The translations under genes and the position numbers were made by a program. Positions 812 through 19,748 of a DNA stretch of 25,033 nucleotides are shown here, piece by piece; the first letter of the stretch is position 1, and each line of letters starts with the position of its first letter. Below the pieces are notes generated by a model. That model was given only the letters and a program-made list of their open reading frames with translations, made no database searches and was not told the DNA's origin. The stretch is from a virus. The stretch spans positions 1-25,033 of the IMG/VR virus record IMGVR_UViG_3300042197_002432. One strand, given 5' to 3'.

Positions 812-1333
812 TTATCTCCTTCTATCATATCCGTGGCGGTTGATCATTTCCGCCGCTGGTTTCCATGTTTCTGCATTTGCATTTAAGCCATGCCCAAAAA
901 CAATTCTATTGTAATAATTAAATGCAGCGCATACTGCTACTGCATCCTTAAGCTCTTCTTCTGAAACTCCAGAATTAATAGCATCCGTAAAATCTGATTC
1001 TGTTATTTCTGATGGAGATAGCGTTAACTTTTTAACATATGCCATCAATGCAGCAAGCTTTGCATCGCCTGTCTCACCAGATAGTACCAAGTCCATATCG
1101 TTTTCTGAATAACCTAAAGATAATGCGAACTCTCTATGTGAACCCCAACAATACTCGCAGCTGTTAAGCTTAGATACATAAGATGCCAGAACTTCTCTAA
1201 TAACGGGGTCTAAAGATGAAGGCTCTCTTAATACCTCTTCTGCCAATGTAAGTGATGGCATATACTTTTTAGGATTTTCTTGAAAAATATTTACTATGCT
1301 TGTTGCGCTTTTAAGCGATGAAAAAAATGACAT
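812..1333 (-). CDS. AhpD/carboxymuconolactone decarboxylase-like CxxC protein
   Basis: The protein has 173 residues and is all-helical in pattern. It carries the AhpD-family redox motif as NSCEYCWGSH (Cys59, Cys62, His66). The usual Glu three residues before the first Cys is Leu here, as in some peroxidase-related members. The C-terminal CAAFNYYNRIVFGHGLN also matches this peroxidase-related group. Family members use the Cys pair for alkylhydroperoxide or disulfide chemistry. The ATG overlaps the upstream stop (TAATG), so it is probably translationally coupled to the membrane-protein gene and belongs to the halogenase transcript. A role in removing peroxide released by uncoupled flavin halogenases is inference; catalytic activity is not shown. 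Confidence 0.85.
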   Translation of the reverse strand: MSFFSSLKSATSIVNIFQENPKKYMPSLTLAEEVLREPSSLDPVIREVLASYVSKLNSCEYCWGSHREFALSLGYSENDMDLVLSGETGDAKLAALMAYVKKLTLSPSEITESDFTDAINSGVSEEELKDAVAVCAAFNYYNRIVFGHGLNANAETWKPAAEMINRHGYDRRR

Positions 1334-1626
1334 TATAGAATTACCCCAAAGTGTTTAAGTATTGAGGCGAATGCCAAAATACACCATGCTATATTAAACC
1401 AAATAATTGTTGGTAAAGTCTTAATGGTGGAAGTAAGTATAAGGGCAAGGCTTGAGCCTAATGCAAAAATATACAGCCACCACCACTGTTTACCAAACAA
1501 TAGTCCTGGGATAATTATAACAAGCTTTGTGCAGAAAGACAAGGCCTCCACAGCATTGACACGATTCCAGTAAGACTTTTGAAAAAATCTTTTAGAAACG
1601 GATTTAAAATCATTAATTTTTAACAC
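1333..1626 (-). CDS. Small integral membrane protein, unknown function
   Basis: The protein has 97 residues with a basic N-terminal stretch and about three hydrophobic segments at roughly residues 29-43, 46-66 and 71-95. The middle contains a GKQWWWLY motif. I recognise no family. The start is GTG, overlapping the end of the second halogenase gene by 14 bp; no in-frame ATG offers an alternative near the N-terminus. A GGA about 8 nt upstream is only a weak ribosome site, so coupling to the upstream gene is likely. Its stop overlaps the start of the AhpD-like gene. The position suggests a membrane anchor, transporter or superinfection-exclusion function, none of which the sequence supports specifically. 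Confidence 0.7.
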   Translation of the reverse strand: MLKINDFKSVSKRFFQKSYWNRVNAVEALSFCTKLVIIIPGLLFGKQWWWLYIFALGSSLALILTSTIKTLPTIIWFNIAWCILAFASILKHFGVIL

Positions 1627-3142
1627 TTACTGATCCGATCAGATTTAAAACCTCTTCCCATGTGGTAGAGGATTGAGCTGCCAAATTCTGTCTAATTTTA
1701 AACAGTTCGTAGTTCATATTTTCTGCTTCAGAATATGAATTTTTGAATTCTTCTATATATGGCCTGGTGTTAAGTATACCATTACCTTGCAGAACAAACA
1801 AGTAGTTTTCCAAGGCAAACATATTAGTGTTATCAAAATCACTGTATTCCAGCATATTGTTTTTAGACTTATTTAGTATAGTTTTTACAAAGTCTGGGGT
1901 ACTGTTATTAGTAGTAAAATTTTTCCAGAAATCTGTGTCTTCCCTATTTGTTACATAATGAAGATATATAAAATTCAATATTTCTTCCTGATCCATCCTG
2001 TATCTATGGTTAAACATTTCTTTATCGGATTCAGAATAATTCAATAAATCATCTAAGTCTGCTGGTAGCCTTTTAAGGCTATGAAGGTTAGATAAAATTG
2101 CTGTGGCTTCCATTGGCTCTATAAAGCCAGCCGATAAACCCATTGCAATACAATTTTTTATCCATACGTTTTTATACATTCCAGGATTAAACTCGAAGAA
2201 AAGACCTGGCTTTGGAGGCTCAACGCTGAATCCAAAATACTCCTCTACTTCTTTCTTAGCTTCATCTACTGTTATATAAGAAGAATCGAATACGTATCCG
2301 CATCCATATCTGTGTTGTAATGGGGTTATCCACATCCAACCATACTTCATAGCAACAGCATTTGTACTTGATACCACCCCTTTGCCAATCTGATCGTGAG
2401 ACAAGAAAAATGGAAATGCTTTATCCGCTGGTAAATTCTCTGAGTAGCTTTTCCATTCTGAATTATAATGGTTTCCAATAACTAGTCTTTTAAATCCACT
2501 ACAGTCAAACAGAAAATCTACATCTATTGCATTCTCTTTACAATTTATCTTTATAATAGAGCCATCGCTGTTCTCTTCAAATGACACGACTTCGTCATTT
2601 ATATAGGAGACGCCCCTATCTTCTACAGCTACTTTTTTAAAATATCCTGCTGCCAATTTAGCATCAAAATTCAAAGAGAAGTGGCCTAGTCTAGTAGTAT
2701 TTTTTGAAAATGGAAATCTTTCATTTTCTGCTAAATTTGAGTTTAAATCAAATTCTGCCTGCTTATTTCCTTTTGCAATAGAGTAGACCATGGCCCTTGA
2801 GTTGTATTGATTGATTGGATCAATAAAAGAGTTTAATTCTGATATTGCTAAATCATCATCGCCTGAAAAAGAATTATAATAGTGTCCACCATCTTTATCC
2901 CAGTTAGTAAATTTTGCAGCAACCTTGATTGTTGCTCCGCAATTATTAATGATCTCATAAAATGGAATCTTTACAATATCTAGAAAATCTATGAACATTG
3001 GAGTAGTGCTTTCTCCAGCCCCCAGTATACCTATCTCCTCACTTGCAATTACTGTTACGTTAGATTCTGGGTACAAATGCTTTGCATATATAGAAGTCAT
3101 CCATCCTGCTGCGCCACCACCAATAATTACAATATTACTCAT
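1613..3142 (-). CDS. Flavin-dependent (tryptophan-type) halogenase 2, divergent
   Basis: The protein has 509 residues, near the family norm. The N-terminal FAD-binding motif is IVIIGGGAAGWM, followed by GAGESTTP. The catalytic lysine region is GATIKVAAKFTNW, with Lys73 at the place of Lys79 in PrnA/RebH. The glutamate region is AGFIEPMEATAI, with Glu345 aligning with Glu346 of PrnA but Ala replacing the Ser that follows it. The fingerprint WxWxIP appears as WMWITP (269-274), with Thr for Ile. The family oxidises halide with FADH2 and O2 and passes hypohalous acid to Lys. The start at 3142 is chosen over 3181 because the glycine-rich loop begins there and AGGA lies 6 nt upstream. It overlaps the DUF6065-like gene by 8 bp. 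No flavin reductase is encoded in the window. Substrate unknown. Confidence 0.92.
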   Translation of the reverse strand: MSNIVIIGGGAAGWMTSIYAKHLYPESNVTVIASEEIGILGAGESTTPMFIDFLDIVKIPFYEIINNCGATIKVAAKFTNWDKDGGHYYNSFSGDDDLAISELNSFIDPINQYNSRAMVYSIAKGNKQAEFDLNSNLAENERFPFSKNTTRLGHFSLNFDAKLAAGYFKKVAVEDRGVSYINDEVVSFEENSDGSIIKINCKENAIDVDFLFDCSGFKRLVIGNHYNSEWKSYSENLPADKAFPFFLSHDQIGKGVVSSTNAVAMKYGWMWITPLQHRYGCGYVFDSSYITVDEAKKEVEEYFGFSVEPPKPGLFFEFNPGMYKNVWIKNCIAMGLSAGFIEPMEATAILSNLHSLKRLPADLDDLLNYSESDKEMFNHRYRMDQEEILNFIYLHYVTNREDTDFWKNFTTNNSTPDFVKTILNKSKNNMLEYSDFDNTNMFALENYLFVLQGNGILNTRPYIEEFKNSYSEAENMNYELFKIRQNLAAQSSTTWEEVLNLIGSVSVKN

Positions 3143-3821
3143 AAGACTTCCTATGCCATTTAAAATCTTTGTACCACCCATAAGCTTTTCTCATTGCATT
3201 AAACTCATTAGACTCTGCAACTTCAACTATAGAACTATCTTTGACTGATTGCCAATCTTCTCTTTTATATGGGAGTATTTGATAAATTGGAGTTCCTGCT
3301 GGAATGATTCCTTCAAATCCAGACTTTAAGAAAAATGGAAGATTGCCTCTTGCCATAGTCATATCTGCATCAACAACACCAGAAAGAGTTGTAAATGGCA
3401 GATCAAATCTATTGAATGGGTGGGAAATCAAAACACTATACCCTTTTGGAACTTGTATATTAAATATAGATTTCCAAGCGTAGTGGTCTTCGTCATGTCC
3501 TGCTGGAGTAGGCAATGTCTTATTTAATCTAGGCCTTTTTTCTATTGGATCTGGCGAAACCCTCCACTGTAATCTTGGACCTAGCTCTGTTTGTTCAACA
3601 ATTACATCTGTCCAAAGCAATGCTGTGTAACCAGAAGTCATTGCATCTAAAAATGGCATACACATCTTAATGCCATGATTTCCAGCTCCGTTATTAATCT
3701 TTAGATTACCGCCTATAAACCTTTCAGATTCTCTATACCATTCTGGAATATGTTTTTTAGATGGTTCTGGAGTTTCTATTAATTTGTTTCCCTGGGAAGC
3801 AAACTTTATTTGTTTTTTCAT
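3135..3821 (-). CDS. DUF6065-like protein encoded between two halogenases
   Basis: The protein has 228 residues with no signal peptide or membrane segment. Visible motifs are HIPEWYRE near residue 24, then IKMCMPFLDAMTSGYTALLW (about 51-70), SHPFNRFDLPFTTLSGVVDA in the middle and PAGTPIYQILPYKREDW near residue 175. From memory this pattern belongs to a family annotated DUF6065, seen in phages and bacteria, sometimes beside halogenase-like genes; I could not search to confirm. No function is known to me. The ATG overlaps the stop of halogenase 1 (TAATG) and its end overlaps the start of halogenase 2, so the three should be made together. A substrate-presenting or accessory role for the halogenases is inference. 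Confidence 0.8.
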   Translation of the reverse strand: MKKQIKFASQGNKLIETPEPSKKHIPEWYRESERFIGGNLKINNGAGNHGIKMCMPFLDAMTSGYTALLWTDVIVEQTELGPRLQWRVSPDPIEKRPRLNKTLPTPAGHDEDHYAWKSIFNIQVPKGYSVLISHPFNRFDLPFTTLSGVVDADMTMARGNLPFFLKSGFEGIIPAGTPIYQILPYKREDWQSVKDSSIVEVAESNEFNAMRKAYGWYKDFKWHRKSYE

Positions 3822-5446
3822 TATTTATCCTTGTATAAAGTATTTGAAAGATGCTCATAAACAGTTGGGAGATCTTTTGCCAAAGAAGCCCATCTTTCTT
3901 TATTGGTATTCCATATTTGAGAAAAGTACTCGATTTTTGATTTAACATCATAACCTAAAGAAATCTGATTTGTATAAATTTCTGTTGCAGAAATTATTGG
4001 ATAATTTAGTCCAGTAGCTACGCAGCTTAAGCCAGATGCTGGGCCACCATATTCATTTCTAGATCCCCATTTAAATAAATAAAATTTTCTTGCTATTAAA
4101 TCAATTGGTGTAGATGCAATGCTGTAGCCTGAATTAATAATATCTGGATAATAGCTTCTGCCAGTAGCATTTTTCCAATATTTCGTATCTTCTCTAATTG
4201 ATAATGCGTAGTGTAATGTGACAAAATCTGCGAATAGATTGAACTGTTCAAATGTTACAGTATTATATGCGTCTCTATCCCATTGAGAAATCTTTTCTCT
4301 TTCTAGAGTAGAGCACAAGTATTCTAAAAACTTGTGAACTGTAAACAATCCATTACTCTCAAGTGGCTCAATAAATCCTGCTGCAAGGCCTAGTGCGACT
4401 ACATTTTTAACCCAAGTTCTTTTATGTATTCCAACTTTGAATTTAACATCTTTAAATTTTAAATTTTCTACATCTCTTTCTGCGTCATATGCAGTGACAT
4501 AATCAGTTTTTAAATATTCTTTAAATTGCTTAAGCGCATCTTCTGGAGAAATAAATTTATCGCTATAAACATATCCCGTACCGATTCTTTGCCATGAAGG
4601 GATATTCCACACCCAACCATTTTCTATTGCTGTGCATGTTGTGAAAGGCTCCATCTGTTTATTTTTATCAGTGTATTGTATTTGTGTAGCCCATGCTCTA
4701 TTATTTGGAATTCTATCAGAATAGTCTATCCATTCTTCATTTAAAGCTTTTCCAATAAGAATAGAATGGAATCCAGTACAATCTATAAATAAGTCTGAAT
4801 ATATTTTTTCATCGTTATCTAAAACAAGGTAGTCGATTCCGATATCAGAAACAGACCAGTCTTTTACTGTGTTAGTTTTTAAAATAACACCTTTTGGCAA
4901 ACAGAAATTATTTTTTAACCACGCTCCAAACATATTAGCATCAAAATGCAGGGCTGATCCTACAGATGAATCAAATAATATTGTTCCGTCTTCGTCCTTA
5001 AATTTATCTATAAATTTATTTTCTGGAAGAAGGTGTGATACTGGATAAAATGTATCTGTATAATCTTCTACTTTAGTATCTGGATAAAACATTTTTTTAA
5101 TATACCAATCTTCTGTTTCTCCCATTCCACGAATAGAATCAACTATTGGTCTTGTAAATGGATAGTGAAATGATCCACTTCCTTTTTCATAAAAATCTCT
5201 AAACTTAATGCTTAACTTATAGATAGCATCACACTCTGACATAAAATCTTCTTTAGCAAGTCCTATTAATCTAAGCCAATCATTCATAAATCCAAGGGTG
5301 CTCTCGCCAACACCAACTGTAGGAGTGTCTGGACTTTCAATAACAACTACTTCTTTTTCTGGAAACACAGACTTCATTGTTGCTGCAACCATCCAGCCAG
5401 CAGAACCTCCGCCAACAATTGCAATTTTATTTACTTTAAGATTCAT
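3821..5446 (-). CDS. Flavin-dependent (tryptophan-type) halogenase 1, VirX1-like
   Basis: The protein has 541 residues and all family signatures are intact. These are an FAD loop IAIVGGGSAGWM (residues 8-19), GVGESTLGFMNDWLRLIG, the catalytic region CDAIYKLSIKF with Lys77, the fingerprint WVWNIP (278-283), and AGFIEPLESNGLF with Glu363-Ser364 at the places of PrnA Glu346-Ser347. The stretch YEKGSGSFHYPF after the lysine recalls cyanophage halogenases such as VirX1, which acts on free small molecules and prefers iodide. It should halogenate an aromatic or heteroaromatic substrate using FADH2, O2 and halide. The start is an ATG overlapping the upstream TGA (ATGA), with AAGGA about 10 nt before it. 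No flavin reductase lies nearby, so the host presumably supplies reduced flavin. The substrate cannot be read from the sequence. Confidence 0.95.
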   Translation of the reverse strand: MNLKVNKIAIVGGGSAGWMVAATMKSVFPEKEVVVIESPDTPTVGVGESTLGFMNDWLRLIGLAKEDFMSECDAIYKLSIKFRDFYEKGSGSFHYPFTRPIVDSIRGMGETEDWYIKKMFYPDTKVEDYTDTFYPVSHLLPENKFIDKFKDEDGTILFDSSVGSALHFDANMFGAWLKNNFCLPKGVILKTNTVKDWSVSDIGIDYLVLDNDEKIYSDLFIDCTGFHSILIGKALNEEWIDYSDRIPNNRAWATQIQYTDKNKQMEPFTTCTAIENGWVWNIPSWQRIGTGYVYSDKFISPEDALKQFKEYLKTDYVTAYDAERDVENLKFKDVKFKVGIHKRTWVKNVVALGLAAGFIEPLESNGLFTVHKFLEYLCSTLEREKISQWDRDAYNTVTFEQFNLFADFVTLHYALSIREDTKYWKNATGRSYYPDIINSGYSIASTPIDLIARKFYLFKWGSRNEYGGPASGLSCVATGLNYPIISATEIYTNQISLGYDVKSKIEYFSQIWNTNKERWASLAKDLPTVYEHLSNTLYKDK

Positions 5447-6144
5447 ATTCTGGATTTCCTTATTTCTTTCATTACTATTTTGTTGATTCTATTTGAATCA
5501 AATTTTTTATACAAATTACTTAACGAAGTATTTTTTTTATATCTTTTTATTTCAAGGGAGCTTTTTACTACATCTCTTAGTGTATCTGTAAAATAAAATT
5601 CTATAAAATTAATCTTTTTATCAGTATTAAATTTTATATAAAATAAATCTTCATTTTCATTTATTTTAAATCTAATATTATCGTATATTGCATAAGAGGG
5701 AACAACTGGCCTAAACCATTTAGATATATTAAATTGTCCTGGAATAAAGTGTGCATTACTTATTTTATTTTTATTAAAGAAAGGATCTATAACATCTATT
5801 GAAATATCATCTTCTGAAAATAAAGATAAAGGCACTAGATAATCCATAATCAAGTTATTTTCTGAATATTCTCTTACAGATATATAGTCTTCTAAATTTG
5901 CTGCATTCCAACCTATTGTTTTATCTTTATTAAAAGACAAGTCTAGCGTCATTGGATTTTTAAAAGAAAATGTATTTTTAAGTAAATTTTTTACAGCTGG
6001 GCATCCAATCCAATTAACATCATCTCTAATTGGCTTTCCAATATTTTTACTATAATCTAATAATATATTGCTTGGCTCAAAACTCATTGACGGGTTAAGC
6101 TCATTTGTAAAGATATTATATTTAGACCAATATACGTTTATCAT
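5443..6144 (-). CDS. Unknown protein, first gene of the halogenase transcript
   Basis: The protein has 233 residues. It contains WIGCPAVKNLLKNTFSFKNP near residue 45, then NAHFIPGQFNISKWFRP and a hydrophobic/charged C-terminal half ending in basic residues. I recognise no named domain; the FxPGxFxxxxWxRP pattern recalls uncharacterised marine phage proteins. The start is set at the ATG at 6144 (MINVYWSKYN), not the TTG at 6180, because a promoter with TTGACT and TATCAT places the -10 box exactly 6 nt before this ATG and the TTG has no ribosome site. The DNA is strikingly AT-rich (hand count 34 G+C in 180 bases at 5521-5700). The stop overlaps the halogenase 1 start. A function tied to halogenation is inferred only from position. 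Confidence 0.75.
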   Translation of the reverse strand: MINVYWSKYNIFTNELNPSMSFEPSNILLDYSKNIGKPIRDDVNWIGCPAVKNLLKNTFSFKNPMTLDLSFNKDKTIGWNAANLEDYISVREYSENNLIMDYLVPLSLFSEDDISIDVIDPFFNKNKISNAHFIPGQFNISKWFRPVVPSYAIYDNIRFKINENEDLFYIKFNTDKKINFIEFYFTDTLRDVVKSSLEIKRYKKNTSLSNLYKKFDSNRINKIVMKEIRKSRI

Positions 6145-6150
6145 AAATAT

Positions 6151-6180
6151 ATGATACCATTTAAGATATCGATAAGTCAA
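6151..6180 (-). promoter_or_regulatory. Promoter of the halogenase cassette, probably leaderless
   Basis: The minus strand reads TTGACT (6175-6180), an 18-bp spacer and TATCAT (6151-6156). Each hexamer matches the sigma70-type consensus at 5 of 6 positions. Six bases follow and then the ATG at 6144, so transcripts would start at or beside the start codon. No Shine-Dalgarno sequence precedes that ATG. The -35 box overlaps the TGA stop of the upstream gene. The GG directly before TATCAT is shared with most other -10 boxes here. Confidence 0.6.
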
Positions 6181-6518
6181 TGACTATGGGAGTGTCCCCA
6201 CTCAAATTTATTAACGCCTGGACCTTCATTAGCATTGCCAATAAATCTAAGTGTATTCTTAATAACATCCTCCATATTCTTATATGTAATTTCTATCATC
6301 TTTGAAATTACTGGAAGTGTTAAATTATTAAATTCTTCTCTTATAACAATACTAGAGTTTTCAAATAAATCTATGTTATTTTCAGAAAAAATATTAATTA
6401 CATCTTTATATGTAATTAAATTTTCATTATTTTGCCATGACTCCAAATAAAGAAAAAGAGCAGAATCTTTTGCAAGTGCCACCAGCCTAGGAGCCAATAT
6501 ATTATTATTGACTGTCAC
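6177..6518 (-). CDS. Unknown helical protein with His-rich tail
   Basis: The protein has 113 residues and a largely helical pattern with no membrane segment. It ends in EWGHSHSH, a short His-rich tail that could bind metal. I recognise no family. The start is a GTG that overlaps the upstream TGA (GTGA) without a clear ribosome site, so it is probably coupled to translation of the Tfa-like gene. Its last bases contain the -35 element of the halogenase promoter. It may belong with the tail-fibre genes rather than with the halogenases. Confidence 0.65.
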   Translation of the reverse strand: MTVNNNILAPRLVALAKDSALFLYLESWQNNENLITYKDVINIFSENNIDLFENSSIVIREEFNNLTLPVISKMIEITYKNMEDVIKNTLRFIGNANEGPGVNKFEWGHSHSH

Positions 6519-6931
6519 GATTTTTTAAGAGATGGCAGTCCTTCTGCTGGAACAGGCTGTCCTAGCAATTTATCAATCACATCTTCAGGTGGTAATTTTA
6601 CTAAAAGTAATTCTATTTCATCTTCTGAAAGTCCAAGTTTTACCAAAATTTTTTCTCTATCAGAAATAACTTCTTTTAATTCAGACTTTAACCTATTAAC
6701 ATCTTCTTCTGAAATTCTTTTAACTTCTGGCTCGGTTTCTACATCTTGAACTTTCCAGGAGTTGCTTTCTTTATCTAAATAACAAATATGTGTCTCAGGA
6801 TTAAAATTTGGTGGAGCTACATCAGTTGAATATGCAGGCATTAAAAAAACACCTGGCTCTAAAGGAGATTCATCTACACTAGACTCTCCAACAAATTCCA
6901 TAGTAATAGGGTTGTATGTATAAGCAATCAT
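6515..6931 (-). CDS. Tail fibre assembly (Tfa-like) protein
   Basis: The protein has 138 residues. The N-terminal half, AYTYNPITMEFVGESSVDES followed by PLEPGVFLMPAYSTDVAPP, is the recurrent opening of Tfa-type fibre assembly proteins, which chaperone or cap fibre tips. A TWK-like segment is represented by SNSWKVQDVE near residue 57. The C-terminal half is helical and charged, with possible coiled coil at about 75-110. It lies directly after the tail-collar gene, the usual neighbour of such chaperones. Its start is an ATG after an AT-rich gap with only a weak AAAGA upstream. It could alternatively be a small virion component. Confidence 0.75.
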   Translation of the reverse strand: MIAYTYNPITMEFVGESSVDESPLEPGVFLMPAYSTDVAPPNFNPETHICYLDKESNSWKVQDVETEPEVKRISEEDVNRLKSELKEVISDREKILVKLGLSEDEIELLLVKLPPEDVIDKLLGQPVPAEGLPSLKKS

Positions 6932-6951: not shown

Positions 6952-6975
6952 ATTAAGTTTAAATTAAAACTTAAT
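6952..6975 (-). terminator. AT-rich hairpin at the end of the collar gene
   Basis: A perfect 9-bp inverted repeat (ATTAAGTTT / AAACTTAAT) encloses a 6-nt loop and overlaps the stop codon of the collar gene. Each arm has only one G or C, and the bases after it are TTAATTAG rather than a clean U-run. It could slow or partly terminate transcription, or protect the 3' end of the giant-fibre/collar mRNA. Weak evidence for true termination. Confidence 0.3.
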
Positions 6976-7476
6976 ACAATAACGTAATGCTATTGTCCGA
7001 ACTCTAAGCTCTGATCCTTCGGCAACAGGTGCATCTAATGCATATTGTGTTGAGTTGTCACCGAATGGTTCATATCTGTATTCTCCAGACGTTCCCCATC
7101 CAAAGTGGCTTCCACCCTGAACCTGTGCGTGTCCCCATCCATATAGATACCAAGATCTTGTCTGGTGTCTATGACGTGGAATCATGGCATTCTGGAATGA
7201 TCCAAATCCACGACCTGAGTCTATACCACGACCATCATCGAATCCACGGATATGTTCTCCACGAAGGTCTGGAACGTTAAATGTAGTTGATCCGTCTCCT
7301 CCGCCAAATGTGGTGCTAATTGCTGCAAAGAGGTCAGCATAAAGTGTTCTGCTTACAGCTGCACCATTGCAGTGTATGTATCCATTTGGAGTATTATTAG
7401 CTCCCCATGCGACTACAGTTCCTGCTGGAACAACACCGCCGCTTGCATTATTTAGTAAATTATTTAACGTTGCCAT
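6964..7476 (-). CDS. Short tail fibre / tail collar domain protein
   Basis: The protein has 170 residues. It opens with a short helical segment and then GGVVPAGTVVAWGANNTPNG, followed by YIHCNGAAVSR and FNVPDLRGEHIRGFDDGRG. This is the phage tail collar domain of T4 gp12-type fibres. Next comes the His/Tyr/Trp-rich receptor part (IPRHRHQT, SWYLYGWGHAQVQGGSHFGW) and the standard C-terminus RTIALRYCIKF. In T4 gp12 such histidines bind metal along the fibre axis. The start at 7476 overlaps the giant-fibre stop (TAATG); an ATG at 7494 would add six residues and cannot be excluded. Its role is adsorption at the distal tip of the giant fibre or at the baseplate. Confidence 0.92.
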   Translation of the reverse strand: MATLNNLLNNASGGVVPAGTVVAWGANNTPNGYIHCNGAAVSRTLYADLFAAISTTFGGGDGSTTFNVPDLRGEHIRGFDDGRGIDSGRGFGSFQNAMIPRHRHQTRSWYLYGWGHAQVQGGSHFGWGTSGEYRYEPFGDNSTQYALDAPVAEGSELRVRTIALRYCIKF

Positions 7477-10400
7477 TATGCTATTAGTCTCCATCCATAA
7501 GTTGTATTGCTATAAACTAATCTTACAGATGCATTGTTTACGTTAAACGGCATGTCTTCTGCAAGGCCCTGGATTAGCTGTCCATTTCGGGCGATATTTA
7601 CTGGTGTATTAAATGCTGTACCAGCTATATCTGTAATTACTATTTCATCTCCAAGTACTGGTGATGAAGGTAGTGTTAGTGTTAATCCAGATCCTGGAAT
7701 CACAAAGTAATTTCCAGAACTTTGAACTCCTGCTGTTCTCAATTCTCCACGAGCAACTAACGTCTGGCTAGTTGAAATTATTTGTGGTCTTTGATCAGCA
7801 TATCTCTTCGTTGCAACTGCTAAATCTACTCCAGCTGTTGGGTCTTGAGATACTTGAACTGTAGTTCCACCAGTCAAAGTTACTGTGTTTGCGTGTACTG
7901 CAACTGTTCCAGTAGATGTTGCTGATGCTGCACCAATTGTTACGTTGGTTGTAGATCCAGAAACACCATTTGTTCCAATATTTACTGTCTTAGTGCTTCC
8001 GCTTACTGTTGCACCATTTCCAATATTGAAAGTTGATGCTCCAACCGCAGAATCTCCGACGTTAACATTTAGCGTTGAGCCAGATGCTGCGTTTGATCCA
8101 ATATTTATTGTTTTTGTAGCTGCAGAAGCAGTCGTTCCTGTTGCTACGTTATATGTTGATGAACCAGTTGAAGCACCAAACATATTTACTGTCTGTGCCG
8201 CTGTAGTAGTATTTCCTAGATTTAATGTTGTTACTGCGTTCCAACCGTTTACGGTTGTAGCAGCATTTCCAATATTAATTGTTGTAGCTACAGTATCCCA
8301 CAAATTCTGTGTGGTCTGTGTGCCAACAACTGTTGGGTTACCAATTGTGAGTGTACCTGAACCTGAACCCATATTAATTGTACTTGCAGTTCTTGCAAAG
8401 TTAAGATTTGTTACTGTTGTGTCAAGTGCGTTGAATGATGTAGTTGTTGAAACTAGATCTCCGCCGCTTATTCTTACATCTCCAGTAGTCTTAAGGTCTG
8501 CAATATTCAAGGTGTTTGTTACTGTTGAAGGTAGAGCCCATGGAATATCTGAGGTTGGCTTTGTTTCAATTCCAGAAATAAGAGACCATTCACCAGTTGA
8601 GTGGTTACGTGCAAGTCCAGTGTATGATCCACGATATGGATCTGTTACTATTGCACTACCTTGGCTTCCACGAATTGTTGTTGTGGTTCCTGGATTTGGA
8701 ACGCTGTCTGTAACTGTACCTGCAGAAGCTGTTGGGTTAATATTTGTAGCTGTCTGTGAGTAAGAAACCTGATTTGCTGCTGGAAGAGCTGTAATAACGA
8801 AGGTTCCGTTAAATGAAGCTGATACACCAGCAACTGTAATCTGTTGACCAATAATATAGTTATGGTTTGTAGAAAGTGTTAAAGTTGATACGTTGCTTAC
8901 ACGTTGTCTGCTTGTTACAGTTCTTGGTGTTAAGGTTACAAGGGTGGTAGGAGCTACGTCATCCTGTGGAACTTCAAACGATAGGCTGTAAGGTACAACT
9001 GTTGAAAGCGCTGATACGTTTAGAGTATCATTAATTAGAGGATCAACATCTTGAATAACTACTGCCTCTCCAATTGTTTCTACTGGAGGCGCTGTTAAAA
9101 TAACTGTTGCTATACCATTTGTAATATTCCATGATGTTACGAAGTTAGTAATTGTTTTTGTAGTATCTGTTAGTGCAACATCTGCTGCTGTTTTAGCAAA
9201 CGAGAAAGACTTGCTTGTTGGAACTGCTGTAATTGTATGAGTTCCATCGAATGTCGTTGGCACAGTTCTTGCAACCTGTACAGAACCAGTTGCTGGGTTT
9301 GGAGATTGTGCTACGCCAGTTTGAATGTAGCGGAATGTTGTTGAGCTTGGAACATCTAAGATTGGGAATGATCCATTATATGCTGATGCCACACCCGCAA
9401 CTACAACTGTTTCTCCTGCTAAGAAGTCATGTGGTTCTGTTGTTGTAATTGTTACATAGTCAAAGTTTGTTGTGCGTGATACTGTTGTTGTACCACCAGA
9501 AACGTTTGAGAAGTCTGGGGTACCAGTATTTGCAAATGATAGTGTATTTGGAGTAACTGCGGTAATTGTATAAGTACCGTTGTAGCCAGTGTCTGCTCCA
9601 TCAACTACTACTGATTCTCCGACTAAATAATCGTGAGATCCATCAATTGTAATTGTTGCTATGTTATTAGAATCTCTAGCAACCAACACAATATTCTTTG
9701 GATATGGTGTTGTAATAACAATTGGTTCTCTCTTCTTAACCATTGGGAAGAAGGTAGAGTATGTAGTTGTTGTATCTACACCAGATACTGTTACTGAGTC
9801 ACCGACTTCAAATCCGTGATTTATGTTTCCAGTTACTAGTGTTGCTACGTTGGTTGTAAGAGATTTATTTGTAGTAGTCAAAGGCCCAAGGATTGTTCCT
9901 GTTCTCTGACTTCTTGCTTGTCCTAGGAAAGCAAAGTCTACGTTATCTCCAATTAACTGTCCGTTAGCTACGAAGATCATAGGATCTGTAACTGCTAGGT
10001 TTTCAGTTTCAACTGTGGTTCCACCACCTGAGAATGAGATCTGACCAGAGATATTAACATCTCCAGCAATATTCATATCTCCTTGAATACCAACTCCACC
10101 GACTACTGTTAGAGCACCTGTTGTAGGTGAAATAGAAGGTGTTGCAATTTCAAGGTGAACATTTTGATTTGGTGTGATAGCAATCTGATCATTACCAGTT
10201 CCAAATCCTCCAGCTGCTAGGATAATCTTGTTTTCTGTACCATTATTACCAGTTGCAATAACGAGATTTCCCTTACCAGTAGTTCCGTCTGGAGCTTCGA
10301 AGAAAATATATCCGTCATTTGGACCTGTAATTCCAAACGCTGGTTGACTGAATGAAGATCCAGTAATACCCATATCGATCCAGCCAGATAAATCGTCGCC

Positions 10401-13046
10401 GTTATTTGCGTAAACGATCACATCTCCTGATGCATTAGCTGTTGGGTTCTGAATTGCAACCTGTGCGTATGGACCACCCTCTGCAATAAATACTGCACGA
10501 GAGTTTGTTAGGTCTGCTGCGGCTTCAAAGGCTTCCGCTCCCTCACCGAAGTATAGAGAACCCTTTGTACGCATCAAACCATCGAATGAGATTTGTCCTG
10601 CGATACCTACGCCACCGACGACTGTTAGTGCACCTGTTGTTGCGCTTGTTGAAGGCGTAGCAATTTCAATATGTACGTTTTGATTTGGTGTAATAACCAT
10701 TTGCTCATTGCCTGTACCTAGGCCACCAGCAGCAAACACGATCTTATTCTGTACACCTGTGTTATCTGTTGCAATAACAAGGTTACCGTCTCCAGTTGTA
10801 CCATTTGGGGCGGACATAAAGATGTATCCGTCATGTTCTCCAGTTACACCGAATAATGGATCATTAAATGATAGGTTTGTAATACCCATATCAATCCATC
10901 CTGAAACGTTGTCTCCTTCTTTAGCATATGCAATATAGTCTGCAGATGAAGAAGTTCCTGATCCAAGGTTTACTAGGGCGTTTTGTACGAAACCTGTTGA
11001 TGTTCCAGCTGCAATAACGACTGCATCTGAAAGTGATGCTGTTGATTCAAAGTTTGTTGCTCCAGCACCAACTGGAAGCTTTGTAACACCCTGAAGGTCA
11101 ACGTTTCCAAGAACTGAGAGGTCTCCAGCAATATTTACATCTCCAGTAATACCCGCTCCACCTGCTACTACAAGTGCTCCATTTGTTGCTGAAGTTGAGT
11201 TTGTTGAAATTTCAATATGTACCATTGTATCTGGAATGATAATCACTTGCTCATTACCAGAAGCAAATCCACCAGCTGCTAAGACAATTCTATTATCTGA
11301 ACCTGTGTCTCCAGTTGCAAGAACTAGGTTACCAGCTCCAACGTACATTGTTGCAGATCCTGTTGTTGCTGCTGAAGGAATATCTGCGTTAGTTTTTGCG
11401 AATGAGAATTCTGTTGATGTTACGGCAGTAATTGTGTGTCTACCGTTAAATACAGAATCAATTCCTGTAATATCAACTTTCTTTCCAACAGTAAATCCGT
11501 GTGGATCAGTTGTTGTTATTGTTGCAATATTATTTGTTAAAGACTTGTTTGAGATAGCCTCTGTTAGTTTTGGAGCGGCTGTTCCAAAGACATATGCATC
11601 GCTTGGGCCAGTAATTCCATATGTTGAAGAATCAAAGTCTGGGCCAGTGAAACCCATATCTGCCCAACCTGCATCATTTGTAGATCCAGTTGTATAGGCA
11701 ATAAAGTCTGCTGACTGCTCTGCACCATTTCCAGTTGAAAGATCCAGGTTATTGATTACAACACCTTGTGCAAATCCCTCTGCGTCCCAGGCTGCTGCTG
11801 TTGCAACATCTGTGAGAGCAGCATCTCCTTCAATAAATGTACGTGCACCATCACCAAAGTAAAGGTTTGTTACATCTCTTTCAAATGTGGCTACTGATCC
11901 GTCTGTAGTAAGTACGTATCCGCCACGACCACCCTGTGCTGGAAGAAGACCAGTTGCTCCCTTTGCTAAAATATCCCAATATTCTTCATCATCAATCAAG
12001 AACGGGCTTGATGTGTGGTCTTGTGTAGCAATTCTTGCGTTTTCTCCATCGGAAATAACGTCTCCTGAAATATAAACTGTTGATGCAGCCCATGCTCCAC
12101 GATATCTAATTCCTGAATTATATTTTGTCCACTTGCCAGAGTTAAGGTCTGTTGCAAAGTATGCTGATGACGAGTGGAATACATTTGTTAAATATGTGCT
12201 TCCTCCCCAGTTTACAACGTCTCCAGATAAATACTCACTTGAAGGAGCCCATTCTCCCTTATAGCTAAATCCTGAAGTTAAAACATTCCAGTATGTTGTA
12301 TCGCTTGGAGTATTTCCTAATGTATCTCCCTTAGCAATGTAAATTGTAGAACCGTAAACAATAATATCATTTATGTGATATTGTGTTGCTGGGTTGTATG
12401 TTCCCATAGCACGAACGCCATCGACAAACACTGTCCAGTCATCTGAATTAAGTGATGGAACCTGGTTTACGTTATTTGTTTCTGAAATGTAAACTCTTGC
12501 ACCGTATGCAACTAATTGATTTGGCTTATACTGTGTAGCAGAATTCCATACGCCTGTTGCGTCAATTCCTGATACAAACTCATCCCAATATGATGTGTTT
12601 GTTGGAAGATTTCCAACACCGTCTTGCTTTGCAATATAAACTGATCCGCCGTAAGTTACTACGTCATTCTTTTGATAGTTTTTTGTATCTAAAAATTCTG
12701 CCTCATACTGAATACCATCTGCAAACTGTGACCAGTATTGTGCATTTGGTGGAGTATTTCCAGAACCTGTTTTAATAGAAATATAAACTTTACCACCATG
12801 TGCAACGCCATCGCCAACACGATATTCTGTTGCTGGAGAATATGCACCAGTAAACTTAAGACCTTCAATCATTAGTGCCCAGTAATTATCATTTGTTGGC
12901 AGGTGTCCTGTTGAAGCTAGAGCGTATGTATATACGTATACGTTACCTCCGTACTTAACTACATCGTTAAGTTCGTAAGTTGCTGAATCACTCCATAGTC
13001 CAGCAAAGTAGAATCTGATTTTACCAAGGTCAATAAGTTGTGTCAT
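7476..13046 (-). CDS. Giant mosaic tail fibre protein (1856 aa)
   Basis: Four repeat regions are visible. Residues about 12-365 hold seven ~50-residue copies of the pattern W/Y..ATxYxxxDVVxYGG..Y, each ending in PT...YW....G, like carbohydrate-binding module 5/12 repeats. Residues about 380-1020 hold three ~150-residue modules of the type GWIDMGIT, GNLVIATG, IxLAAGG and NQNVHIEIATPS. Residues about 1080-1480 hold several copies of the type TITTTxPHxFxVG, GVxxxFNGTHTITAV. The last third has short NIGN/TVNIG repeats, probably a shaft, and then a beta-rich tip ending in YGWRLIA. It is probably a trimeric long tail fibre. The start is an ATG overlapping the upstream stop, with GGAGAT upstream. 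It is followed by collar and Tfa-like genes, as expected for a host-recognition locus. Confidence 0.93.
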   Translation of the reverse strand: MTQLIDLGKIRFYFAGLWSDSATYELNDVVKYGGNVYVYTYALASTGHLPTNDNYWALMIEGLKFTGAYSPATEYRVGDGVAHGGKVYISIKTGSGNTPPNAQYWSQFADGIQYEAEFLDTKNYQKNDVVTYGGSVYIAKQDGVGNLPTNTSYWDEFVSGIDATGVWNSATQYKPNQLVAYGARVYISETNNVNQVPSLNSDDWTVFVDGVRAMGTYNPATQYHINDIIVYGSTIYIAKGDTLGNTPSDTTYWNVLTSGFSYKGEWAPSSEYLSGDVVNWGGSTYLTNVFHSSSAYFATDLNSGKWTKYNSGIRYRGAWAASTVYISGDVISDGENARIATQDHTSSPFLIDDEEYWDILAKGATGLLPAQGGRGGYVLTTDGSVATFERDVTNLYFGDGARTFIEGDAALTDVATAAAWDAEGFAQGVVINNLDLSTGNGAEQSADFIAYTTGSTNDAGWADMGFTGPDFDSSTYGITGPSDAYVFGTAAPKLTEAISNKSLTNNIATITTTDPHGFTVGKKVDITGIDSVFNGRHTITAVTSTEFSFAKTNADIPSAATTGSATMYVGAGNLVLATGDTGSDNRIVLAAGGFASGNEQVIIIPDTMVHIEISTNSTSATNGALVVAGGAGITGDVNIAGDLSVLGNVDLQGVTKLPVGAGATNFESTASLSDAVVIAAGTSTGFVQNALVNLGSGTSSSADYIAYAKEGDNVSGWIDMGITNLSFNDPLFGVTGEHDGYIFMSAPNGTTGDGNLVIATDNTGVQNKIVFAAGGLGTGNEQMVITPNQNVHIEIATPSTSATTGALTVVGGVGIAGQISFDGLMRTKGSLYFGEGAEAFEAAADLTNSRAVFIAEGGPYAQVAIQNPTANASGDVIVYANNGDDLSGWIDMGITGSSFSQPAFGITGPNDGYIFFEAPDGTTGKGNLVIATGNNGTENKIILAAGGFGTGNDQIAITPNQNVHLEIATPSISPTTGALTVVGGVGIQGDMNIAGDVNISGQISFSGGGTTVETENLAVTDPMIFVANGQLIGDNVDFAFLGQARSQRTGTILGPLTTTNKSLTTNVATLVTGNINHGFEVGDSVTVSGVDTTTTYSTFFPMVKKREPIVITTPYPKNIVLVARDSNNIATITIDGSHDYLVGESVVVDGADTGYNGTYTITAVTPNTLSFANTGTPDFSNVSGGTTTVSRTTNFDYVTITTTEPHDFLAGETVVVAGVASAYNGSFPILDVPSSTTFRYIQTGVAQSPNPATGSVQVARTVPTTFDGTHTITAVPTSKSFSFAKTAADVALTDTTKTITNFVTSWNITNGIATVILTAPPVETIGEAVVIQDVDPLINDTLNVSALSTVVPYSLSFEVPQDDVAPTTLVTLTPRTVTSRQRVSNVSTLTLSTNHNYIIGQQITVAGVSASFNGTFVITALPAANQVSYSQTATNINPTASAGTVTDSVPNPGTTTTIRGSQGSAIVTDPYRGSYTGLARNHSTGEWSLISGIETKPTSDIPWALPSTVTNTLNIADLKTTGDVRISGGDLVSTTTSFNALDTTVTNLNFARTASTINMGSGSGTLTIGNPTVVGTQTTQNLWDTVATTINIGNAATTVNGWNAVTTLNLGNTTTAAQTVNMFGASTGSSTYNVATGTTASAATKTINIGSNAASGSTLNVNVGDSAVGASTFNIGNGATVSGSTKTVNIGTNGVSGSTTNVTIGAASATSTGTVAVHANTVTLTGGTTVQVSQDPTAGVDLAVATKRYADQRPQIISTSQTLVARGELRTAGVQSSGNYFVIPGSGLTLTLPSSPVLGDEIVITDIAGTAFNTPVNIARNGQLIQGLAEDMPFNVNNASVRLVYSNTTYGWRLIA

Positions 13047-16288: not shown

Positions 16289-17755
16289 TCATCCGTAGCT
16301 TGCACAACATGTTGTTCTTGATCCATCTGAGTTGTTATTAGCTGTACAGTCTCCTACGTTGTAGCATTGGAAATAATTATTGCTAGCCGAGTTTGTAACA
16401 TCATAACTCTTACAGTTGTATTTATAAGAAGTACAGGTTGGAGCTGGGTTTGTAGACTGACATGCTGGATAACTTGTTCCAAAACTGCACTGTCTGGAAT
16501 ATCCAGTTCCGCTTCCAGAATTATCATAACCAGGTTTTGTATAACTACAATTTCCTGCTCCGCCTCCTTGATATGACTCTGTACAATACCATTCGTTTAC
16601 TGGAGCACAGCATCCGCAAGACCCACTTAACTGTTGATAGCTAACCTGTATTTCTTGATTAACGTTTCCACAGCTATAATCATAAGAGTATCCGTCCCAT
16701 GATCCATTTATTAAAATTGTTCTACGTGCTGCGTAAGTCCAAGTTTGATACCCTACTGTATAGGTTCCATCACAAGCGGTTCTGCTGCTTACTGGACCGC
16801 TTATAGCATCCCCATATGCTTGACAAGATCCATATGTTGTTGTAGTTGGTGGAGTACATGATCTAGTTACTGCATAGCTACCGCTTTCATTATATGTATT
16901 ACCGCAATTATCTGTTCTGCTACGAGATGATGCCGTTCCAGATTCTGTACCAGATGGACAGCTTCCGCTCCAAGTGATGTTGCTATAAGACCAACCAGAG
17001 TAGGAAGAAATACTACACGGAGCAGTATATCCACATAATCCGTCTATTTGATTACTACTTGTAACTGTTAATATATCAGTTGTCCCACATCCATCTGTTG
17101 AATACGAGGATCCGTCCCAAACTCCGTTTGCATAAATCTTTTTTCTAGTGTTATATCTATATGTTGTTCTTTCTTGATAATATGTACTAGAACAGCCAGT
17201 GCTATTTCCCAAGTTTGCTATTGGACTACCATATGCTTCACAAGGACCGTAAGTTATTGTTGGTGGTGTAACATATCCACACTGTCCATTAACCTGAGAA
17301 CTACTTGTTATAGATCTAGAAATTGTTGGGCTACATCCAGATGAAGTATAAGAAGACCCATCCCAAACACCGTCAGCATATATCTTTTTTCTTGTATCAT
17401 ATTGATAATCTGTGTACTCTTGATAATATTCTCCAGAACATTGGTTTCCAGTACCTACAATAGAACCGCTTCCATACGCTTCGCAGGGTCCGTATGTGTA
17501 TGTAATTGGATTTACATAACTATAATAAGAAAATGGAATAACAGTTCCAATATTAACAGTAGACCCACTAGATATAGATTGAGACTGAATGTAATTCGTT
17601 AAACCTGAGTCAGAAGTGTTTGTTGTTGATTCAGAATATGCAAGTCCTAGAGAAGAAAGTAAAGACTGAGCTTGTTCTCTAGTTAATCCTGATAGATTTG
17701 GAATTGTTACTTTTCTTATTCCGCCTCGACTGGGTCTACCAGATCTTCTACGCAT
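16289..17755 (-). CDS. PASTA-domain, Cys/Tyr-rich repeat surface protein (488 aa)
   Basis: A basic N-terminus (MRRRSGRPSRGG) is followed by one PASTA domain at about residues 15-80 (VTIPNLSGLTREQAQSLLSS to GSTVNIGTVIPF). PASTA domains bind peptidoglycan stems or beta-lactams in Gram-positive Ser/Thr kinases and PBPs. Three ~78-residue repeats lie at about 84-162, 166-245 and 305-384, each of the type TYGPCEAYG, YYQE, TRKKIYADGVWDGSSY, GC, CGY. A Cys-rich end follows. I count 28 Cys, and Tyr is about one residue in ten. There is no signal peptide, so it is more likely a virion protein than an exported one. It sits between fibre genes, one base after the 663-residue fibre. Its likely role is host cell-wall recognition. 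Its disulfides would have to form after lysis or outside the cell. Confidence 0.8.
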   Translation of the reverse strand: MRRRSGRPSRGGIRKVTIPNLSGLTREQAQSLLSSLGLAYSESTTNTSDSGLTNYIQSQSISSGSTVNIGTVIPFSYYSYVNPITYTYGPCEAYGSGSIVGTGNQCSGEYYQEYTDYQYDTRKKIYADGVWDGSSYTSSGCSPTISRSITSSSQVNGQCGYVTPPTITYGPCEAYGSPIANLGNSTGCSSTYYQERTTYRYNTRKKIYANGVWDGSSYSTDGCGTTDILTVTSSNQIDGLCGYTAPCSISSYSGWSYSNITWSGSCPSGTESGTASSRSRTDNCGNTYNESGSYAVTRSCTPPTTTTYGSCQAYGDAISGPVSSRTACDGTYTVGYQTWTYAARRTILINGSWDGYSYDYSCGNVNQEIQVSYQQLSGSCGCCAPVNEWYCTESYQGGGAGNCSYTKPGYDNSGSGTGYSRQCSFGTSYPACQSTNPAPTCTSYKYNCKSYDVTNSASNNYFQCYNVGDCTANNNSDGSRTTCCASYG

Positions 17756-17756
17756 T

Positions 17757-19748
17757 TTAAGCGCTCAAATCGCCGAGAACAACCCAAGAATTTAAAGCTC
17801 TTTTTATAAGAGTTGCACTACTCCATTGAGTACGCAATTTTAATCCAGGTGTAGCATTTGGAGTAAATCCATTTCCTGCAATAGTTACTTGAGAAGATCC
17901 TGTCTGTAATATGTCTACTGAGTAACCAACTGGAAATGCAGTAGAATCTGTTATTGTTACAGTTCCGCCTGCAGACATTTCAATAATCTTGCCAGAGTCT
18001 ACTGGTAAAATTGTGTAACTTGAAGATTTAGAATTTATTGTTATTGTGTTTTGAGATTGTACAGAAATTGATCCTTGCATTGAAGAATGATATTGACATG
18101 CGTAATAAAGATCATCTGGGGCGCTTTGTGGAAGCTCTACTAAAATATGCCCTGCTGCTGTACCGTTACCTGTTATGCCAGTTGAATATACGTTACCTGA
18201 GCTATATGCGCCAGATACTGTCTGAATCCAAAACGGGTGGCCTGGAGCATTGATATGAATTCTATACTTCTTTCCTTTTTCAAAATAAATTAATCCGTTA
18301 GCTACACCATTTACTGTATATGACCCACTTCCAGAGTTTGTAATATAATAATCAACTGAAGGTTCTGTTAAATTTAATTTTAAATCTAGTGCTGTTTGTG
18401 TTGCTGTAGATACTGGTTTGTTAGCATCTGAAGTATTGTCTACATTTCCTAGCCCAACCATTGATTTTGAAATACCGCCAACTGTTCCAGTAAAAGTTGG
18501 TGACTCAATTGGAGCCTTTGTGCCTAAAGATGTAGATACTGTTGTAGCAAAATTTTCATCGTCTCCAAGTGCCGCTGCTAACTCATTTAAAGTATTTAAT
18601 GTTTCTGGAGCGGTATCTACTAAATTAGTAATTGCTGTTTCGACATAAGTTTCTGTAGCATATCCAGTTAAACTTGGAATAGTTGGCTTATTGGTCAAAT
18701 CATCATATGAACCAGAAAACAGCGTAGGCTTACTTGTTAAATCATCGTAGCTGCCGCTAAACAATGTTGGTTTGTTAATTAAATCATTATATTCACCACT
18801 GAAGATATTAGGTTTATCAGTAAGGTCATTATAAGATCCGCTAAACAATGTTGGAAGTCCAGTAAGGCTATTATATGCACCGTCAAATAAGGTCGGCTTG
18901 CCTGTTAAACTTTCATAGTCTCCATCAAAAAGAGTTGGCTTTTGCAGGATATTGTCCCAAAGAATATTTGGAATATCTCTACCGTCTATGTTTAATCTTT
19001 TACCAGCTCCAATGTTTGTCCAGTATAAAGTATTATCAGTTGGAATACTTTCGTTATCAAAATTAGCTACAAATATATTTCCGCCATCCCAAACTATATC
19101 TCCAGCCAAATATCTTGTGTTCTCTCCGCCAGGAAGCAGGTAGTGGTTTGCTGTCCACTTAACGGCTCCTAGTGCAATATTAGGTCTGTTTATTAAATCG
19201 TTATAGTTTCCGCTAAACAATGATGGCGTATTTGATAAGTTATTATAGTCTGTTACAATTTCTGAATCTCTTGCAATGTTAGAAGGAATATAAGAGTCTG
19301 GAATTAATGCGTTTCCATCTAAAGGGGCAACTCCGTCAATGTTACCTACATCCCCAACTGGAACATATTGTCCATCTATAGAGTTTCCAAGTCCTGCAAC
19401 TGCGGTATCTGTATAATCATTTGCTCCCTGAATTGCAGTTGATAGATCTGTGGCAAGCACTACGTCTGGCCCTGTATCTAAAACTATGTAGTTACCTTCA
19501 TCGTTATATGTAACGGTAATATTAGATCCTGTTGATATAAAATTTGTTAGAGCGCTATATATAGCATCTTGAGATATTTCATCAATTTCAAATTTATTAA
19601 GAGGAAGTAAAGAATTCCATAAAGTTGTTCCGTCGCCAATTTTTATTGTTTTTAATACTGTATCATATCCAAGTTCTCCGCCAAGTAAAGGTACGGTGGA
19701 AGAATCCCATTGTGCGGTAGTTCCTCTTTTTATTCTTATCTTTGGCAT
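17757..19748 (-). CDS. Tail fibre protein with cupredoxin-like domain (663 aa)
   Basis: Residues 1-49 (IRIKRGTTAQWDSSTVPLLG, GELGYDT, IKIGDGTTLWNSL) match the N-terminal domain of Mtd-like and other fibre proteins. A QD-YND module lies at 59-92. Residues about 168-192 and 270-357 carry 14-residue repeats of the type KPTLFSGSYDDLTS. SKSMVGLGNVDNTSDANKPV (428-447) is a common fibre module. Residues about 464-565 form a cupredoxin-like domain with possible copper ligands His504 (PGHPFWIQ), Cys551, His554 and Met557 (YYACQYHSSMQGSISV). The tip is a beta-rich C-terminus ending WVVLGDLSA. The ATG overlaps the upstream stop (TAATG). It is probably a trimeric fibre. Confidence 0.9.
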   Translation of the reverse strand: MPKIRIKRGTTAQWDSSTVPLLGGELGYDTVLKTIKIGDGTTLWNSLLPLNKFEIDEISQDAIYSALTNFISTGSNITVTYNDEGNYIVLDTGPDVVLATDLSTAIQGANDYTDTAVAGLGNSIDGQYVPVGDVGNIDGVAPLDGNALIPDSYIPSNIARDSEIVTDYNNLSNTPSLFSGNYNDLINRPNIALGAVKWTANHYLLPGGENTRYLAGDIVWDGGNIFVANFDNESIPTDNTLYWTNIGAGKRLNIDGRDIPNILWDNILQKPTLFDGDYESLTGKPTLFDGAYNSLTGLPTLFSGSYNDLTDKPNIFSGEYNDLINKPTLFSGSYDDLTSKPTLFSGSYDDLTNKPTIPSLTGYATETYVETAITNLVDTAPETLNTLNELAAALGDDENFATTVSTSLGTKAPIESPTFTGTVGGISKSMVGLGNVDNTSDANKPVSTATQTALDLKLNLTEPSVDYYITNSGSGSYTVNGVANGLIYFEKGKKYRIHINAPGHPFWIQTVSGAYSSGNVYSTGITGNGTAAGHILVELPQSAPDDLYYACQYHSSMQGSISVQSQNTITINSKSSSYTILPVDSGKIIEMSAGGTVTITDSTAFPVGYSVDILQTGSSQVTIAGNGFTPNATPGLKLRTQWSSATLIKRALNSWVVLGDLSA
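18054..18359 (-). other. Cupredoxin-like domain within the 663-residue fibre
   Basis: This stretch encodes about 100 residues with a GHPFWIQT strand and the closing motif YYACQYHSSMQGSISV. Type 1 copper sites use His, Cys, His and Met in this order, with the last three on the loop before the final strand. Similar CxxHxxMxG modules occur repeatedly in marine phage proteins. The ligand set is complete in sequence, but copper binding has not been shown here, and the short Cys-His-Met loop may instead be purely structural. Confidence 0.65.
18680..18948 (-). repeat. Tandem 42-bp coding repeats in fibre shaft
   Basis: Six consecutive 14-codon units of the type KP-[TN]-[LI]-F-[DS]-G-x-Y-[DNE]-[DS]-L-[TI] lie inside the 663-residue fibre (residues about 270-357), with a diverged partial copy earlier. 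The DNA copies have diverged at synonymous sites, so the array is old or under selection at the protein level. It probably forms an elongated shaft. Confidence 0.75.

Follow-up and report, generated by a model that had tools for sequence, protein, structure and literature searches.

What would a phage gain from two unlike flavin-dependent halogenases placed directly behind its tail genes? The question is raised by the IMG/VR virus fragment IMGVR_UViG_3300042197_002432, a stretch of 25,033 bases that was analysed at full length and is called the window below. On its minus strand the tail module is followed by a six-gene cassette, encoding in order the protein U233, the halogenase Hal1, the DUF6065-like protein D6065, a second halogenase (Hal2), the hydrophobic protein MEM97 and an AhpD/CMD-family protein, and then by the conserved gene P105 (Table 1). 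Comparison with related loci, designated here by L numbers, suggests that the cassette could be an exchangeable, tail-fibre-linked module of a probable actinophage in which a halogenase modifies a virion protein, a reading to which a probability of roughly 0.38 is given. The matter has a wider bearing, on the natural substrate of flavin halogenases, enzymes that aquatic phages often carry and one of which, VirX1, the relative of Hal1, is a valued biocatalyst. Residence next to the tail fibre, exchange together with the tail tip, and the company of predicted dUTPase-fold proteins and 2-oxoglutarate (2OG)-Fe(II) oxygenases lead to a specific, testable proposal, namely that virion proteins contain aromatic residues that have been halogenated or oxidised; if this were true, VirX1 would have the modification of tail tips as its natural role.

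A variable slot behind the tail fibre

The slot was defined as the stretch from the tail fibre to P105, and contigs were collected through these flanking genes. All 25 contigs that cover it hold at least one VirX1-clade halogenase, and many hold one only (the partial contigs L226, L239 and L247, too short to judge, lie outside the 25). Four architectures were found, each of them closed by P105. Type 1, the set of the window, is present in 10 contigs, some of them near-identical; the exact set is thus confined to one phage lineage, and the recurrence of the ordered six genes in distant phages, which the first-pass annotation had named as a positive outcome, was not found. Type 2 consists of collar, tail-fibre-assembly gene, D6065, halogenase, D6065, carbamoyltransferase (in the member examined), D6065, U233 and MEM97. 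Type 3 runs from collar and tail-fibre-assembly gene to 2OG oxygenase, D6065 and halogenase, to which L303 adds a further halogenase, U233 and AhpD; another type 3 contig, L295, stops inside its first halogenase. In type 4 the fibre is followed by two kilobases of other genes, a halogenase and MEM97. Both types 2 and 4 carry a single halogenase.

The genes that accompany Hal1 were counted in 60 distinct loci for which Hal1 had been the sole anchor, by comparing positions up to three genes away with positions 5 to 15. With oxygenase identity assigned by Pfam, 2OG-Fe(II) oxygenases make up 37% of the near genes, as against 9% of the more distant ones (Fisher 4e-19); the corresponding figures are 3.4% and 0.3% for MEM97, and 3.1% and 0.5% for D6065. 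No 2OG oxygenase was found beside the halogenases of the window itself. In cyanophage isolates, a VirX1-clade gene stands directly after tail-fibre, fibre-assembly or large structural genes, and before 2OG oxygenases, in nine of the ten examined, although these isolates are kin and do not represent nine independent events. The enrichment of 2OG-Fe(II) oxygenases around the halogenases and their position after tail fibres, both read from gene order, appear to be new here.

Separate histories of the two halogenases

Co-divergence within the slot was followed through pairwise identities among seven type 1 lineages, using Mantel tests with raw per-pair p values. A first block, composed of collar, the tail-fibre-assembly-like protein TFA138, U113, U233, Hal1 and D6065, varies together (r with Hal1 0.65-0.87, p 0.001-0.008). 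Hal1 does not co-diverge with MEM97, with the C-terminus of the fibre or with Hal2 (r = -0.02, p = 0.51), while the divergence of Hal2 parallels that of the fibre C-terminus (r 0.78, p 0.03). The two halogenases therefore seem to have had separate histories, which is not what would be expected of two halogenases in a tight complex.

The gene company leads in the same direction, as only 7 of the 60 Hal1-anchored loci have another halogenase at a distance of up to three genes. In addition, the pairs differ in composition: the window combines a Hal1-clade gene with a Hal2-clade gene, whereas syn9, P-RSM6 and L303 each carry two Hal1-clade genes. Because both halogenases of L303 belong to the VirX1 clade, unlike those of the window, the pairs appear to have been assembled independently. 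The heteromeric two-halogenase system suggested by the first-pass annotation was rejected on these grounds, namely the rarity of pairing, the lack of co-divergence, the independent pairs and the single-halogenase slots, to which the patchy occurrence of AhpD may be added. The same annotation had offered rare adjacency of the two halogenases in related phages as an argument against itself, and this is largely what was found. What holds from that earlier view is that the enzymes are real, here with intact catalytic residues, that they have a promoter of their own and that the gene context recurs.

The halogenases as enzymes

That the window encodes two unlike halogenases was confirmed, both proteins matching PF04820 and retaining the catalytic Lys and Glu. 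In a tree of viral halogenases Hal1 groups with VirX1 (syn9 gp42) and Hal2 falls outside, with a node support of 0.84; classification was taken from trees, since profile scores were unreliable, both profiles having grown to the same 202 sequences. Hal1 matches VirX1 with 323 bits and, aligned with it, shows the full halogenase set, that is GGGSAGW, the catalytic Lys (YKLSIKF), WVWNIP and FIEPLES. Hal2 has GGGAAGW, its catalytic Lys (IKVAAKF) and FIEPMEA, and reads WMWITP at the WxWxIP position, where both Trp and the Pro are retained and Thr stands for Ile. The catalytic Lys and Glu are present in 100 of 100 Hal1-clade sequences, and sequences on the Hal2 side are variable at several motif positions. 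The ratio of nonsynonymous to synonymous substitution rates (dN/dS) is 0.08 for Hal1 in comparison with its nearest relative, L011, and Hal2 differs from its L011 counterpart by a dN of 0.17 and a dS of 1.61. Overall, all six cassette genes are real, intact and under purifying selection. Weak matches to the window halogenases were also obtained for QhpG, LodB and GoxB, which act on peptides or proteins.

U233 and D6065, a pair with a predicted dUTPase fold

Iterated profile searches connect U233 with D6065 (hhalign probability 94, E 1e-7). The predicted models of the two proteins have mean predicted local distance difference test (pLDDT) values of 79 for U233 and 84 for D6065, their best VIA-align Z scores are 10.1 and 10.3, and in each case dUTPases fill all 50 of the 50 listed rows. 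Foldseek searches with both models returned dUTPase matches as well, and only dUTPase and dCTP-deaminase entries stood out in the structure searches. The resemblance extends over about 190 residues of predicted fold and includes GVxDxD, which resembles motif 3, and PAGTPIxQI, which resembles motif 4. In contrast to dUTPases, neither protein shows the motif-2 Arg-Ser or the motif-3 Tyr, as read by eye from the alignment. Since these catalytic residues are not recognisable, the proteins were not filed as dUTPases, and hydrolysis of dUTP is probably not their function. The profiles and models together present D6065 and U233 as likely remote paralogues with a predicted dUTPase fold, a relation that is new here and that provides DUF6065-like proteins with a predicted fold.

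The label 'DUF6065-like' itself survives in part. A direct Pfam scan gave no match between D6065 and PF19541 (DUF6065), but bacterial relatives of D6065 in Bradyrhizobium and Hyphomicrobiaceae do match it, so that the label is justified transitively, as a distant relation only. Members of the D6065 family are indeed found, as DUF6065, in some bacteria; a literature search found no paper on the family. In the cyanophages syn9, S-RIM44 and P-TIM40 a D6065-family gene directly follows VirX1-type halogenases, and in S-CREM1 the gene right after the halogenase is annotated as 'triphosphate nucleotidohydrolase'. The idea of D6065 as a dedicated halogenase partner was nonetheless rejected, a halogenase being present anywhere in only 5 of 76 distinct D6065 loci; rather, its neighbourhoods suggest that D6065 more generally accompanies 2OG oxygenases and paralogues of its own. 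Many D6065-family genes occur among viral contigs, frequently as paralogues arranged in tandem next to 2OG-Fe(II) oxygenases and with no halogenase (L099-L178). Three HF2-like haloarchaeal tailed viruses (L096, L097 and L098) have a D6065 homologue and no halogenase in the locus; these haloarchaeal homologues lie on the strand opposite to adhesin and tail-fibre genes, either beside ribonucleotide reductase or after thymidylate synthase.

MEM97 and the AhpD-like protein

MEM97 probably has three membrane spans, as read from hydropathy. It occurs with halogenases of both clades, and 40 of 55 distinct MEM97 loci have a halogenase no more than three genes away, as against 3 of 76 for D6065, for which reason MEM97, and not D6065, is regarded as the halogenase-linked gene. 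Relatives were found neither in 84,980 prokaryote species genomes nor, by tblastn, in phage isolates, and the cyanophage loci L003-L009 contain no homologue. MEM97 is thus named here, from its distribution, as an apparently virus-only membrane partner of halogenases.

The AhpD-like CxxC protein was correctly recognised in the first-pass annotation, as shown by its PF02627 match and the SCEYCWGSH motif. At the DNA level its gene and the L094 counterpart are 93% identical, amid neighbouring genes at 74-76%, and most relatives lack it; this contrast in identity suggests that it moved recently, and AhpD appears to be a recent, mobile and patchy accessory addition.

Comparison with known phage halogenases

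VirX1 (PDB 6QGM; Cyanophage Syn10) shares 99.8% identity with syn9 gp42, the latter being the second of two neighbouring halogenase genes, so that the earlier impression that phages were known to carry single halogenases only, with VirX1 as the example, was mistaken. Adjacent pairs also occur in P-RSM6, S-RIM44 and P-TIM40, and the two prnA copies of syn9 were tabulated in 2010 (PMC3037559, PMC2984593). Biochemically, VirX1 is a true iodinase/brominase with a large open active site and a broad aromatic scope, and halogenates many free heteroaromatics in vitro (PMC8407142). Like the window, syn9 places its adjacent pair after tail-fibre-assembly genes, and there the D6065-family gene gp43 and then 2OG oxygenases follow. 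The two differ in that both syn9 enzymes are of the VirX1 clade, whereas the window has one VirX1-clade enzyme and one unlike it, with D6065 between them; MEM97 and AhpD are features of the window, and no 2OG oxygenase was found beside its halogenases.

Two other known types are more remote. The cyanophage prnA or T4-GC 212 'tryptophan halogenase', known since 2010 from T4-like marine phages (PMC3037559, PMC2984593), also belongs to PF04820, but is shorter than Hal1, resides mostly in other genome regions and is only distant kin. The freshwater actinophage DSL-LC01, a phage of Actinomycetia, carries a single flavin halogenase (ORF137; PMC10611076) after collagen-like tail genes. It is 28% identical to Hal2 and is followed by a glycosyltransferase, and its locus contains neither a D6065 nor a MEM97 homologue. 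Two minor observations concern the wider family: a region of S-PM2 that matches Hal2 by tblastn (L284, 5001-6227) has no coding sequence annotated in NC_006820, and the human-gut phage scaffold MT835646 (L010) holds two separate halogenase-like genes, which group together in the tree.

Proposed role and alternatives

In the proposed mechanism, the halogenase would draw reduced flavin (FADH2) from a host reductase and would generate hypohalous acid. It would then halogenate or oxidise aromatic residues in a virion protein, the distal tail tip (collar or fibre) being the most likely target. D6065 and U233 could act without catalysis, perhaps as trimers, in recognition or assembly, MEM97 might anchor or assist the enzyme at the membrane, and Hal2, instead of being a subunit of Hal1, would have been acquired independently and would act on a different site or substrate. 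The substrate, the use of halide and the roles of D6065, U233 and MEM97 are all inferred. Modification of a virion protein is supported by the constancy of the slot, the co-divergence of Hal1 with the tail tip, the positions in cyanophages, the company of 2OG oxygenases, and the action of QhpG, LodB and GoxB on peptides or proteins. The intact catalytic residues, a dN/dS of about 0.1, and the open active site and broad scope of VirX1 (PMC8407142) are also in its favour.

Several points weigh against it. The lineages compared are few (seven), and physical linkage in one recombination block can by itself produce co-divergence. In addition, we know of no halogenated phage protein, and a modification of virions in the cytoplasm would hardly be expected to involve a membrane protein. 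In L194-L204, units of Hal1 and MEM97 adjoin ribonucleotide reductase and queuine tRNA-ribosyltransferase genes and not tail fibres, which speaks against a purely tail-bound role; lysozyme-like and integrase genes lie downstream of these units. The exception among the cyanophages, S-B64, has its halogenase beside SbcC, and 73 of the 76 D6065 loci have no halogenase within three genes. A bolder generalisation, that phages possess a protein-halogenation or oxidation system for their own tail tips, in which the receptor-binding fibres are decorated by VirX1-type halogenases, dUTPase-fold recognition partners and 2OG oxygenases that are exchanged along with these fibres, is offered as a rather doubtful possibility.

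The literature search returned papers that treat phage halogenases as auxiliary metabolic genes, and none that proposes virion-protein modification. Auxiliary metabolism, the published assumption for cyanophage prnA (PMC2984593, PMC10452541), would assign the halogenases a free small molecule as substrate, such as tryptophan, indole, a pigment or another host metabolite, and a part in protecting the infected cell or blocking a competitor, with MEM97 exporting or sequestering the product and AhpD handling peroxide. The activity of VirX1 on many free heteroaromatics in vitro (PMC8407142), the Hal1-MEM97 units located away from tail genes, and the presence of membrane and peroxidase-like proteins all fit such a role, but genes of a pathway that would produce or process a metabolite are missing, and the constant position after tail fibres, the 2OG company and the co-divergence with the tail tip are left unexplained, so that it is considered unlikely, if the best of the alternatives.

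A weaker case can be made for the host envelope as the target, altered by halogenase and MEM97 late in infection to achieve superinfection exclusion or the release of progeny from receptor debris. Genes for exclusion or receptor modification sometimes adjoin receptor-binding genes, as the module does here, and MEM97 is virus-only and tied to halogenases of both clades; its homologues having been found neither in L003-L009 nor in phage isolates (tblastn), this link could apply to part of the family only, and the proposal is judged distinctly unlikely. Least probable is that the enzymes act in vivo as flavin monooxygenases without halogenation (for example in peptide hydroxylation, like QhpG), 'halogenase' being then a misnomer, a suggestion that the WMWITP motif of Hal2, the variation on the Hal2 side and, should the window come from fresh water, the scarcity of halide there would suit, but that conflicts with the retention of every halogenase motif in Hal1 and with the iodinase/brominase activity of its relative VirX1.

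Promoter and layout of the window

A consensus scan of the single sequence yields 37 promoter-like sites where 36 are expected, which is chance level, and on that basis alone the proposed promoter TTGACT-N18-TATCAT at the head of the cassette is unremarkable. It was accepted only once relatives had been compared: TTGAC(T/A), a diverged spacer of 17-18, TG and a -10 box 6-7 nucleotides before the U233 ATG are retained in all seven loci (the window, L011, L094, L095, L014, L179 and L205), as the sole such match in each. From this spacing a nearly leaderless transcript is predicted, and leaderless messages are common in actinobacteria. Since the promoter is conserved among relatives, the cassette would have its own transcription start in the lineage of the window, though overlapping genes extend past it.

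All six open reading frames are present on one strand with overlapping ends, as first described. U233/Hal1 share ATGA, Hal1/D6065 and MEM97/AhpD share TAATG, and the overlaps of D6065/Hal2 and Hal2/MEM97 measure 8 and 14 nucleotides. The description of the cassette as self-contained was overstated, because overlapping genes run on both sides of it (TFA138/U113 above, P105 below), and no flavin reductase was recognised among the window proteins scanned.

Table 1. Features of the cassette and its surroundings (positions in the window; aa, amino acids)
Feature	Position	Strand	Length	Description
P105	511..828	-		conserved
AhpD/CMD-family protein	812..1333	-		PF02627 1.5e-12; TIGR01926 1.3e-16; CxxC (SCEYCWGSH)
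MEM97	1333..1626	-	97 aa	hydrophobic
Hal2	1613..3142 (likely ATG 3142)	-	509 aa	PF04820 8.3e-92; non-VirX1 clade flavin-dependent halogenase
D6065 (DUF6065-like)	3135..3821	-	228 aa	phrog_7084; predicted dUTPase fold
Hal1	3821..5446	-	541 aa	PF04820 2.3e-94 (profile 1-408/458); VirX1-clade flavin-dependent halogenase
U233	5443..6141 (ATG 6141)	-	about 232-233 aa	phrog_17480; probable remote paralogue of D6065
Promoter	6150..6180	-		TTGACT-N18-TATCAT, extended -10 (TG); retained across relatives
U113	6177..6518	-		small gene; co-diverges with Hal1 and tail tip
TFA138	6515..6931	-	138 aa	tail-fibre-assembly-like protein; phrog_1807 4e-08, phrog_105 1.6e-07
Tail collar (tip) protein	6964..7494	-	176 aa	PF07484 9.9e-22
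Tail fibre	7476..13046	-	1856 aa	phrog_9851 9e-52; CBM5/12 module PF02839 1.1e-10

The host of the phage is probably an actinobacterium, because the ribonucleotide reductase of the window has its closest relatives in Streptomyces phages (66%). Elsewhere, positions 16289-17755, among tail genes, encode a repetitive, Cys-rich protein of 488 residues with an N-terminal PASTA domain, and positions 17757-19748 encode a protein of 663 residues whose N-terminal domain is Mtd_N (major tropism determinant).

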